64,000 nt of DNA from Actinomycetota bacterium (GTDB lineage Bacteria; Actinomycetota; Humimicrobiia; Humimicrobiales; Humimicrobiaceae), in assembly GCA_028698215.1 (NCBI GenBank), contig JAQVDY010000001.1, forward strand, positions 1-64,000, read 5' to 3'. The translations under genes were made by a program, and so were the position numbers. Of the stretch, positions 10,161 through 14,159 are shown in pieces. The notes beneath the pieces were generated by a model. It saw only the letters and a list, made by a program, of their open reading frames with translations. It searched no databases and was not told the origin of the DNA. How positions within the stretch are numbered: the stretch's first letter is position 1; every line of letters starts with the position of its first letter.

Positions 10161-10520
10161 CTACTCTACCAGCTCCATAATAACCATCTGCGCATTATCG
10201 CCTAAACGGTTCTTGTATTTTAAAATCCTGGTAAAACCGCTGGATCTTTCATACATACCGGGAGCCACTTCATTAAAAAGTCTCTGTACAGCCTTATAAT
10301 TGCCTAAAAGCCTCAGGCAGTTTCTTCTGGCTGCCAGATTATCCTTTTTAGCTATGGTTATCAATTTATCTACAAACCCTCTCAGCATTTTAGCCTTGGG
10401 TAGGGTTGTGGTTATTCTTCCATGCTCAAACAGGGAAATAGCCATATTGGCCATCATTGCCTTTTGGTGACTGCTATCCTGCCCAAATCTGGGCCCTTTT
10501 TTTGGTACTACCATATCCAA
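10161..10520 (-). CDS. rplQ: 50S ribosomal protein L17
   Basis: A 119-residue L17 containing RFGQDSSHQKAMMANMA, ITTTLPKAKMLR and SGFTRILKYKNRLGDNA. It lies at the tunnel exit of the 50S subunit and is the last classic alpha-operon gene, 16 nt after rpoA. The N-terminus is a few residues longer than usual (MDMVVPKKG). Confidence 0.95.
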   Translation of the reverse strand: MDMVVPKKGPRFGQDSSHQKAMMANMAISLFEHGRITTTLPKAKMLRGFVDKLITIAKKDNLAARRNCLRLLGNYKAVQRLFNEVAPGMYERSSGFTRILKYKNRLGDNAQMVIMELVE

Positions 10521-10536
10521 TCTTCTCCTGATTTAA

Positions 10537-11472
10537 CTATTTTTTCTTAAAGGATAAACCTAGGTCCTTTACCTTATCTTTAACTTCCTGTATGGACTTC
10601 TGTCCAAAATTCCTAATATCCAACAACTCATCTTCAGAATAATTAAGCAATTTCTCTACCGTATCAATACCTTCCCTTTTTAAACAGTTGTAAGCTCTAA
10701 CCGATAGCTCCAGCTCTTCTATGGAAGGATAATGCGGTTTTTCTTCTTCTTCTTTTACCTCTTCAAAAATAGGGTCATCTTTATTGGCATTATCAGAAAG
10801 ATCAATCAGCAAAGCCATGTAATCATTAATAATTTTAGAAGCCTGGCTTAACGCATCTTCAGGTTTCATGCTGCCATTGGTATTGATATCCATAATCAGC
10901 CGGTCGAAGTTGGTCATCTGGCCCACCCTGGTATTCTCCACCTTAAAAGAAACCTTCTTAATAGGTGAAAAAATGGTATCCAGCGGGATTACTCCTAAAG
11001 CATCGCCTTCCACAGAATTCTCTGCGGCTGTTTTATAACCTTTTCCTTTTTCCAATATCAGCTCAGCCTTTAAATCCCCATCCTTGCTTAGGGTAGCCAG
11101 GTAAGCATCGGGATTAATAATCTCCACTTCTGAACTCAGCTTAATATCAGAAGCCTTGATTACCCCTGCCCCTTTCTTGGACAGCTTTAATTTAACCGGC
11201 TCCTCGGAATCCATCCTAAACACTATTTGCTTCAAATTAGCCACAAATTCCAGTATATCTTCCTTCATACCCTTAAGGGTTGAAAACTCATGTTTAACAT
11301 CCTCTATCTTGATCCTGGTTACTCCCACTCCCTCTATGGAAGAGAGAAGCACTCTCCTGATGGAATTGCCCAGGGTGTGCCCAAAGCCCCTTTCCAAGGG
11401 CTCTACCAGAAATTGTCCATTATAATCGTCTGTATGTTTAACCGTAACTTTTGGTTTTTGCATTTTAAGCAA
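10537..11472 (-). CDS. rpoA: DNA-directed RNA polymerase subunit alpha
   Basis: About 311 residues. The N-terminal domain carries EPLERGFGHTLGNSIRRVLLS, used in assembly and dimerisation. The C-terminal domain (about 240-311) holds ELSVRAYNCLKREGI and LLDIRNFGQKSIQEV, which bind UP elements and activators. The frame opens at 11490, but the first codons are the ribosome site itself (GGGAGGT). TTG at 11470-11472, 10 nt after GGAGG, is therefore preferred; ATG at 11461-11463 is an alternative. An acidic linker (EEVKEEEE) joins the domains. Confidence 0.94.
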   Translation of the reverse strand: MLKMQKPKVTVKHTDDYNGQFLVEPLERGFGHTLGNSIRRVLLSSIEGVGVTRIKIEDVKHEFSTLKGMKEDILEFVANLKQIVFRMDSEEPVKLKLSKKGAGVIKASDIKLSSEVEIINPDAYLATLSKDGDLKAELILEKGKGYKTAAENSVEGDALGVIPLDTIFSPIKKVSFKVENTRVGQMTNFDRLIMDINTNGSMKPEDALSQASKIINDYMALLIDLSDNANKDDPIFEEVKEEEEKPHYPSIEELELSVRAYNCLKREGIDTVEKLLNYSEDELLDIRNFGQKSIQEVKDKVKDLGLSFKKK

Positions 11473-11501
11473 TTTAAATCTACCTCCCAAGCTTAAATAT
11501 T

Positions 11502-12128
11502 CTACTTAGAATATAGCTCAATAATTATAAGCTCATTAATAGGTACCTTGATTTCTTCCCTGGTGGGTACCCTCAGGCATTTCCCCTTTAGCTGGTTTAG
11601 ATCTACTTCCAACCAATCCGGGGGAGTCAAGCTGGCTGCGCTTTCTTTCGCCTCTAAAATAGGCACTATTTCTTTGCTCTTATCAGCAATGCTTATTTCC
11701 TGGTTTTCTTTTACCTGGTAGGAAGGTATGTCAACTACCTTTCCATCCACCATAACATGTCCATGCCCTATCAGCTGCTTGGCTTGAATACGGGAAGAAG
11801 CCAAACCTATTAGATAAAGTACATTATCCAATCTGGTCTCCAGCAGCTGCAGCAGTATTTCACCGGTAATACCCTTCTTCTTTACTGCTTTCTCGTAATA
11901 TCGTCTAAACTGTCTTTCCCTTAGGCCGTAATACCTTTTAGCCTTCTGCTTTTCCCTTAACTGCAGGTAATACTCAGTCTCCATTGTTCTTCTTTTGGCT
12001 TTTTCGCCAGGCACATAAGGCTTTCTCTCCATTGCGCATTTATCAGTAAAACACCTCTGGCCTTTCAAAAACAATTTCTGTTTTTCTCTCCTGCATAACC
12101 TGCAGGATGCACCACTTATATTAGTCAT
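11502..12128 (-). CDS. rpsD: 30S ribosomal protein S4, zinc-binding form
   Basis: A 208-residue S4. The N-terminus has four cysteines (CRLC near residues 9-12, then CFTDKC near 26-31), the C+ zinc-binding form. The S4 RNA-binding domain contains RLDNVLYLIGLASSRIQAKQLIGHGHV. It is a primary 16S binder in the small subunit. The position between rpsK and rpoA is classical. Confidence 0.95.
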   Translation of the reverse strand: MTNISGASCRLCRREKQKLFLKGQRCFTDKCAMERKPYVPGEKAKRRTMETEYYLQLREKQKAKRYYGLRERQFRRYYEKAVKKKGITGEILLQLLETRLDNVLYLIGLASSRIQAKQLIGHGHVMVDGKVVDIPSYQVKENQEISIADKSKEIVPILEAKESAASLTPPDWLEVDLNQLKGKCLRVPTREEIKVPINELIIIELYSK

Positions 12129-12152
12129 ATTCCTGTAACTCCTTTATTTATT

Positions 12153-12548
12153 CTACACTCTTCTTCTTTTTGGCAACCTGCACCCATTATGGGGTACAGG
12201 AGTTACGTCAATGATGTTTCCAATTTCAATTCCCGCTGCCTGTAAAGACCTTACTGCGGTCTCCCTGCCGGAACCTACTCCCTTTACCCTGACATCAACC
12301 CTGCTGATGCCGTGTTCCTGGGCGGCCTTAGCCACTTCATTGGCAGTTATCTGGGCAGCATATGGGGTGCTTTTCCTGGAGCCTTTAAAGCCCATTCCCC
12401 CTGCACTCCCCCAGGCAATAGTATTGCCGTTCTGGTCAGTAATATTAACAATAGTATTGTTAAAAGTAGACTGAATATGGGCTATTCCATAAGCAATATT
12501 TTTTCGCTCTTTCTTCCTTAATCTTCTCTTGGTGGGTTTCTTAGCCAA
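12153..12548 (-). CDS. rpsK: 30S ribosomal protein S11
   Basis: A 131-residue S11 with [35 protein letters not shown] and the C-terminal [18 protein letters not shown]. It sits on the platform of the 30S subunit near the Shine-Dalgarno helix. The frame starts at TTG after a GAGG-type ribosome site. Confidence 0.95.
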
Positions 12549-12564
12549 AACCTTTACCTCCTAA

Positions 12565-12945
12565 TTAACCTGTTTTTTGCTTCTTCCTGATGCCTACGCC
12601 CCGTTTTCTTCCTTTTCTAGTTCTGGCGTTGGTATGGGTTCTCTGTCCTCTAACAGGGAGCCCTCTTTTATGTCTGATACCCTTGTAAGAGTTTATTTCT
12701 ATAAGTCTTTTTATGTTTTGGGTTACTTCTCTCCTGAGATCGCCCTCTACCTTGATATTGGCATCTATATATTCTCTTATCTTTGAAACCTCGTCTTCAC
12801 TTAAATCCTTGGTCTTTAAGCTTTTGTCTATTTTCAGATCATCTAAAATCTGGTTAGCCTTTGATTTGCCAATACCAAAGATATAGGTTAGTGAAACACT
12901 TATATGCTTATCCCTTGGAATATCTACGCCTGCTATTCTAGCCAA
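12565..12945 (-). CDS. rpsM: 30S ribosomal protein S13
   Basis: A 126-residue S13 with [19 protein letters not shown], the helix [13 protein letters not shown] and the C-terminal [18 protein letters not shown], which contacts P-site tRNA and the 50S bridge. It begins at TTG (12943-12945) behind AAGGAGG. It follows rpmJ by 12 nt. Confidence 0.95.
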
Positions 12946-12957
12946 CTTATAACCTCC

Positions 12958-13071
12958 TTAACCCTGTTTCTGTTTATGCCGAGGGTTTTTACAGATTACC
13001 ATTACTTTACCCTCTCTTTTTATAATCCTGCAATCATTGCAGATTTTCTTAACAGATGGTTTCACTTTCAT
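12958..13071 (-). CDS. rpmJ: 50S ribosomal protein L36, zinc-binding form
   Basis: A 37-residue gene found by direct reading between rpsM and infA. The translation starts [14 protein letters not shown] and ends NPRHKQKQG. The Cys-Cys-Cys-His zinc set (Cys11, Cys14, Cys27, His32) is complete, so this is the C+ paralogue type. It stops with TAA at 12958-12960. Confidence 0.95.
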
Positions 13072-13094: not shown

Positions 13095-13316
13095 TTATTT
13101 CTTCCTGTAAGTTATCCTGCCCCTGCTCAAATCATAGGGTGATATTTCTACCTTAACCGTATCTCCTGGCAAAATTTTAATATAATGCATCCTCATTTTG
13201 CCTGAGATATGGGCCAATATCTTATGCCCATTTTCCAACTCCACCCTAAACATGGCATTGGGCAAAGCCTCCAGTATAGTACCTTCGGCCTCTATAATGC
13301 CTTCCTTTTTACTAAT
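13095..13316 (-). CDS. infA: Translation initiation factor IF-1, apparent AUU start
   Basis: A 73-residue S1-fold IF-1, very similar to known IF-1 through [20 protein letters not shown] and [15 protein letters not shown]. No ATG, GTG or TTG precedes the conserved N-terminus in frame: the codons read TAA-ATT-AAA-AAG-GGG-AAC-AAG-ATT-AGT-AAA-AAG. The ATT at 13314-13316 aligns with the usual first Met and lies 6 nt after AGGGG, so AUU is the best start. Start at the upstream ATT is less likely because it lacks a ribosome site. Neighbours are map and rpmJ, as usual. Confidence 0.9.
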
Positions 13317-13394
13317 CTTGTTCCCCTTTTTAATTTATCTAAAGCGCAAATATGTAGATTACCAAAAAATCAACCCGATGTCTACACATTTTTT

Positions 13395-14159
13395 CTAAAC
13401 CCTGGAAAGCACCAGCGGCTTTCCATCAGTTATAGCCACCATATCCTCAAAATGACATGAAGTGCTTCCATCCTGGGTCACTACTGTCCATCCATCATCT
13501 AAAACCTTTACCGCACTGCGTCCAATATTAAGCATAGGCTCAATAGCCAACACCATTCCCGGCTTAAGCTTAGGGCCTTGTCCGGGAGGCCCGTAATTCA
13601 GTATCTGGGGATCTTCATGCATCTTGGTGCCAATACCATGGCCAACAAAATCCTTCACCACTGAAAAGCCGCTCCTCTTGGCCCTCTGTTCTATGCTATG
13701 GGATAAATCTGATAGCCTGCGTCCGGCAAAACAATGCTCTATGCTTAAATCCAAAGCTTCCCGGGTAGCTTCCCACAGCTGGCGGGTAACCTCATCCACT
13801 TCCCCTATCAGGTAGCTCCGGGCTGCATCCCCAAAATAGCCGTTCAGCTCTACTCCCACATCTATGGAAACCAGGTCCCCTGCTTCTATTTTTCTAGGGC
13901 CAGGTATCCCGTGCACTACTTCATGATTTATGGAAGCGCATATACTGCTGGGAAAGGGAATGGAGCTAATCCTCCCCTTATAGCCCTTAAAGGCAGGGAT
14001 GCCGCCGCTTTTTAAAATAATTTTCTCGGCCAGCTTATCCAAGTGACCGGTAGTCATTCCCGGCTCAACAACCTGTTCAATTTTTAAAAGAACATCTGCC
14101 ACAATATGGGCAGCCTCCTGCATTTTCTTAATCTCCTGCGGCGATTTGCATATAATCAT
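13395..14159 (-). CDS. map: Methionine aminopeptidase, type I
   Basis: A 254-residue MetAP that removes initiator Met. The metal-site motifs are visible: SICASINHEVVHGIPG, SIDVGVELNGYFGDAARS (two Asp), DFVGHGIGTKMHEDP (His) and MVLAIEPM (Glu). The start overlaps the adk stop by 4 nt. The order adk-map-infA is classical for the spc/alpha junction in Gram-positive bacteria. Confidence 0.95.
   Translation of the reverse strand: MIICKSPQEIKKMQEAAHIVADVLLKIEQVVEPGMTTGHLDKLAEKIILKSGGIPAFKGYKGRISSIPFPSSICASINHEVVHGIPGPRKIEAGDLVSIDVGVELNGYFGDAARSYLIGEVDEVTRQLWEATREALDLSIEHCFAGRRLSDLSHSIEQRAKRSGFSVVKDFVGHGIGTKMHEDPQILNYGPPGQGPKLKPGMVLAIEPMLNIGRSAVKVLDDGWTVVTQDGSTSCHFEDMVAITDGKPLVLSRV

Follow-up and report, generated by a model that had tools for sequence, protein, structure and literature searches.

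The infA gene of the window (the whole stretch of 64,000 nucleotides that was analysed) raises two questions: whether synthesis of the initiation factor IF1 can begin at an AUU codon, and, if it does, whether that codon places IF1 under the control of the initiation factors themselves. The features on which the first question turns are the following:

13095..13316, minus strand: infA, coding for IF-1 (TIGR00008); AUU start, 73 codons and a stop
13314..13316, minus strand: AUU initiation codon of infA, assigned from conservation in the class and from the lack of ATG, GTG or TTG in the frame from the upstream stop to codon 22
13323..13327, minus strand: Shine-Dalgarno-like (SD) AGGGG of infA, 6 nt from the AUU, read from the sequence; GGAGG- or GGGGG-like and in register in nearly all relatives
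13335..13337, minus strand: in-frame TAA before infA, which blocks upstream starts; similar nearby stops in relatives
12958..13071, minus strand: rpmJ, next gene downstream of infA, ATG start, used as a control gene
13395..14159, minus strand: map (methionine aminopeptidase), next gene upstream of infA, ATG start, used as a control gene

The original prediction had taken the identity of the gene as unmistakable, and the 73-residue product indeed scores far above the cut-off of the NCBIfam equivalog model for IF-1 (TIGR00008; 129.5 bits versus 61.15, E 3.3e-38) in a full-length match, with residues 4-72 aligned to profile positions 1-69 of 69. The gene is present as a single copy in the 1.78-Mb draft genome (63 contigs), and the gene order map-infA-rpmJ-rpsM is that of an IF-1 locus, with a gap of 78 nt between infA and the end of map at 13395. 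On the minus strand, the start region reads TTT AGA TAA ATT AAA AAG GGG AAC AAG ATT AGT AAA AAG GAA GGC. The details on which the prediction was built are accurate: no ATG, GTG or TTG lies in frame ahead of the conserved N-terminus, the earliest being the ATG of codon 22 (in NAM-F); the frame is interrupted by a TAA (13337-13335) seven codons ahead of the ATT; and the ATT at 13314-13316 sits where IF-1 starts, with AGGGG ending 6 nt before it (its GGGG part at 13326-13323).

The comparison with relatives showed that this arrangement is a property of the entire class. By means of a Pfam search of relatives combined with their DNA, the infA start region was readable in 37 of 40 class genomes, the rest being cut by contig ends or giving no hit; these 37 represent three families and 15 genera. 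The start is ATT in 31 genomes, ATA in four (all in family f3) and ATC in two, with not a single ATG, GTG or TTG (n = 37). A purine-rich SD in register and a close in-frame upstream stop accompany it in most of them. Conservation of the ATT at the 5' ends of related infA genes, which had been proposed as a check, was thus found as ATT, ATA or ATC in 37/37 class genomes. An ordinary start in relatives, which had been named as evidence against the idea, is absent across the class (AUH, that is AUU, AUC or AUA, in 37/37) and present in other classes. Outside the class, 14/14 other Actinomycetota and 77 loci of other records have a canonical start (ATG, GTG or TTG) in frame at this site or close to it, phyla beyond Actinomycetota being sampled through individual loci only; in two of these loci (L023 and L024) the canonical start lies further upstream. 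A search pattern that required ATH as the first codon of IF-1 matched 35 of 39 class genomes versus 0 of ~358 other Actinomycetota, and its DTG version 0 of 9 class genomes versus 20 of 92 outside; given that the sensitivity of the pattern outside the class is only ~20%, rare AUH starts on infA may exist elsewhere. The gene therefore displays the sequence features of infC, namely an AUH start, a properly spaced SD and lineage-wide conservation by descent.

Several lines of evidence indicate that the sequence beginning at the AUU is translated. First, pN/pS for infA codons 2-21 is 0.137 versus 0.105 for codons 22-72 (35 genomes); these values are close, and the stretch ahead of Met22 is therefore protein. 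By this measure, codons 2-21 are under purifying selection. Second, of 30 aligned genes from the window's family, 28 begin with ATT, as do 13/13 when one genome per genus is kept. Inside these genes, isoleucine is encoded by ATA 119 times, by ATT 109 times and by ATC 14 times. Although kinship inflates any P value for this bias, the bias sets the start triplet apart from an ordinary isoleucine codon. Third, the control genes have canonical starts: rpmJ has ATG in 35/35 class genomes, rpsM has TTG, GTG or ATG in 34/34, and map has ATG or TTG in 32/33. A CAT-anticodon initiator-type tRNA is present in a related genome (G002), and the window's own genome (G000) carries a copy with 96% identity. 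Initiation of infA at the AUU in the window is, from these comparisons, close to certain. As a separate observation, UUG is the usual start of the ribosomal protein genes at 10161-13000 of the window, with TTG in 26 of 34 rpsM and 14 of 14 rpsK genes in the class genomes read.

A candidate promoter was noted in the gap between map and infA:

13356..13384, minus strand: promoter-like block TAGACA-N17-TAATCT, then TTTGCG, recognized by eye in the upstream sequences of 36 genomes

This block is common to most of the window's family, and its TTTGCG is conserved; a consensus promoter scan did not flag it. If it acts, the infA leader would be ~33 nt long. No stable fold was detected in the leader (z -0.71).

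We then considered the start codons of other genes. Those bearing on the argument are listed with their loci (L) and, where available, their position in the window's own genome:

L158:1480-1986: infC of the own genome, the IF3 gene, AUH start
L317:1004-3106 (G000:C3:49503 onward): infB of the own genome, coding for IF2, AUU start
L376:1501-2049 (G000:C3:21403-21942): rsmD, coding for the 16S rRNA m2G966 methylase, AUH start
L344:14558-15580 and L222:12750-14492: ruvB and nadE, AUH starts
L240:7694, L350:5776 and L230:10733: LCP-family, photolyase and PHP-domain genes of the own genome, SD in register

The infC start is AUH in the class genomes and in other Actinomycetota too. In the window's genus and a second genus, infB lacks a canonical start: G000-G003 and G007 have ATT-AGA-GTW soon after a stop, with an extended GGAAGTGATC-like SD, and in the own genome the region reads TGA-TCT-AAA-ATT-AGA-GTA. 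Together with the AUH starts of infA and infC, this means that IF1, IF2 and IF3 all start with AUU there. On infB, ATG or GTG is the start in most of the other genera that could be read. In rsmD, ATT, ATC or ATA follows GGTGAT in 20 genomes of the window's family, one of which (G018) has an additional in-frame GTG within the SD, and family f3 has ATG. Loss of the m2G966 methylase RsmD relaxes initiator selection (PMC7949028).

A start survey set 1.245 Mb of sequence from the own genome against two relatives (400 kb and 276 kb) and covered 353 and 199 orthologous ORFs. After exclusion of prfB and of leaders with canonical starts, it left infA, infB, infC, rsmD and one LCP-family gene, to which a scan guided by SD sequences contributed ruvB (ATC after AAGGAGGT) and nadE (ATT). 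The latter two have AUH patchily, in many members of the window's family but with ATG or GTG in others, and AUH starts are therefore not restricted to initiation genes. The LCP-family, photolyase and PHP-domain genes probably also start with AUU, with thinner homologue support. As a scan by SD alone is noisy (AUH 8.1% versus 4.6% for other triplets), the count was limited to genes with aligned homologues. On this count, AUH starts are a modest general habit of the window's family, with at least six well-supported genes; infA stands out as the class-wide case that has never reverted. Other survey flags were dismissed: argS has a tRNA gene upstream and a TTG start, rplC, alr, murA, murJ and others have conserved leaders with canonical starts, and antisense shadows were discarded on inspection. 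The prfB flag reflects a programmed frameshift rather than an AUH start and served as a positive control; in the own genome (L233:5059-6103) the main frame of this RF2 gene opens without a start, so that the frameshift is needed.

Autocontrol of IF3 through an AUU start is a textbook case. IF3, helped by IF1, discriminates against AUH codons when the initiation complex locks and when the subunits join (PMC4611024). An AUU on infA would make IF1 output subject to this discrimination. We favor the reading that the AUU has been retained on infA as a feedback device tying IF1 to discrimination by IF3 and IF1 (probability roughly 0.58). The normal initiator tRNA would read the infA AUU (AUC or AUA in some members) on an SD-led mRNA, and selection would keep the poor third base such that IF1 synthesis stays sensitive to the fidelity machinery. 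With abundant IF3 and IF1, AUU complexes would be rejected and less IF1 made; with scarce factors, rejection would ease and IF1 would rise. IF1 and IF3, along with IF2 in the window's genus, might in this manner be held in step by an infC-type homeostasis. The codon and its conservation are observed; from them we infer discrimination at the infA AUU, feedback and coordination of the factors. The proposal that IF1 synthesis is controlled by initiation factors is plausible in the light of the AUH start of infC in the same genomes and of the action of IF1 beside IF3 against such codons, and it is weakened by the AUH starts of ruvB and nadE, by virtue of which an AUH start by itself is no proof of a dedicated feedback loop.

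The main rival holds that AUU, AUC and AUA are ordinary minor starts in this lineage, which drift onto genes, with infA being under no special feedback. We regard this account as a serious but less likely competitor, and feedback as the best single explanation. The patchy AUH starts of ruvB and nadE, with their reversals, and the probable ones of the LCP, photolyase and PHP genes speak for relaxed choice, as do the frequent use of UUG even on ribosomal protein genes and the loss of conserved C-domain arginines from the IF3 of the window's family (f1). With residues numbered on the E. coli IF3 sequence (R116, R147 and R168), R116 is K in 23 of 29 f1 proteins (R in 14/14 outside the class), R147 is lost to various residues in 29/29 (R in 12/14 outside), and R168 is Y or F in 26 of 29 (R in 14/14 outside). 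Work by Petrelli and co-workers in the early 2000s is said to have shown that these arginines matter for the binding of IF3 to the 30S subunit. Their loss is a possible cause of the AUH starts in f1, the two being correlated, and it might weaken codon discrimination and therefore any feedback on infA too. Against relaxed choice, infA reverted in 0 of 37 genomes, including those of families f2 and f3, whose IF3 keeps a basic residue at position 168; the lineage-wide AUH genes (infC, infA and rsmD) are all parts of initiation; and few other genes lack a canonical start among the 353 and 199 orthologous ORFs. Feedback and relaxed choice may also both be true, with infA and infC coming first and other genes following after the change in IF3. 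We tentatively suggest a stepwise spread of the infC trick, in which IF1 would have been recruited class-wide, RsmD in one family and IF2 in two genera, the window's own among them, with the altered IF3 C-domain setting the level of AUH initiation across a regulon that would also include a few other genes (ruvB and nadE).

A start further upstream or in another frame, by readthrough or programmed frameshifting, or an altered initiator tRNA would remove the need for AUU initiation. Frameshifting does exist in this genome, on prfB, and a second in-frame ATT lies at 13332-13334; this ATT was ruled out as the infA start, as it lies before the SD. These routes are very improbable, given that in most genomes a stop within a few codons shuts off the upstream frame, that the relatives share no start in another frame and no joint frameshift or readthrough signal, and that the CAT initiator-type tRNA is present and the neighboring genes use AUG, UUG and GUG. 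Even less credible is a start at the internal AUG of codon 22, with the part upstream untranslated. That AUG is the earliest canonical in-frame start and the choice of automatic gene finders, but codons 2-21 change mainly synonymously, in keeping with their conservation as protein, and the IF-1 model is matched from its first position. Further, the best SD match at any canonical start in the infA ORF is 4 nt, at a TTG deep inside the gene. An IF1 begun at Met22 would also miss the first strand of the OB-fold. Finally, an assembly or sequencing error at 13314-13316, conceivable in a draft of 63 contigs, is refuted by the relatives, since the same codon class recurs in 37 genomes, several of them from independent projects.

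Under the favored feedback reading, the closest parallel is infC itself, with an AUU start and autocontrol in E. coli and an ATC start in Streptomyces (Butler 1987 and Sacerdot 1996, as cited in PMC5472188 and PMC9410913). Like infA here, it is an initiation-factor gene with an AUH start, a good SD and conservation in its lineage; however, IF1 is not the main discriminator of codons but an auxiliary to IF3, and feedback on infA is the inferred part of the parallel. Streptomyces sigR, with a GTC start repressed by IF3 (PMC5472188), is likewise an Actinomycetota gene held down by IF3 at a non-canonical start, but the codon is not AUH, and the product is a sigma factor that does not feed back on the initiation machinery itself. 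AUU starts outside infC are also found on E. coli pcnB (Binns and Masters 2002, as cited in PMC9410913) and Borrelia pncA (PMC13398362), where they are translationally limiting or misannotated; unlike infA, these are single genes, do not code for initiation factors and are not known class-wide. Chloroplast infA has a UUG start (Hirose 1999, as cited in PMC9845219), again a weaker start codon, but one that is canonical for IF3 and in an organelle. Eukaryotic eIF1 is autoregulated via a poor start context (Ivanov 2010, as cited in PMC9845219); it resembles the proposed infA case in that a poor start on the mRNA of a fidelity factor limits that factor, and differs in that context rather than codon is involved and in that the protein is unrelated to IF1. 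A conserved AUH start on a bacterial infA is not described in the open-access literature that was searched.

Gene finders that accept only ATG, GTG and TTG would truncate or drop IF1, IF2, RsmD, RuvB and NadE in these genomes. The class supplies natural IF3 variants for studies of start-codon discrimination. Moreover, with near-cognate initiation of both IF1 and IF3, and of all three factors in one genus, it makes coordinated control of the initiation factors directly testable.
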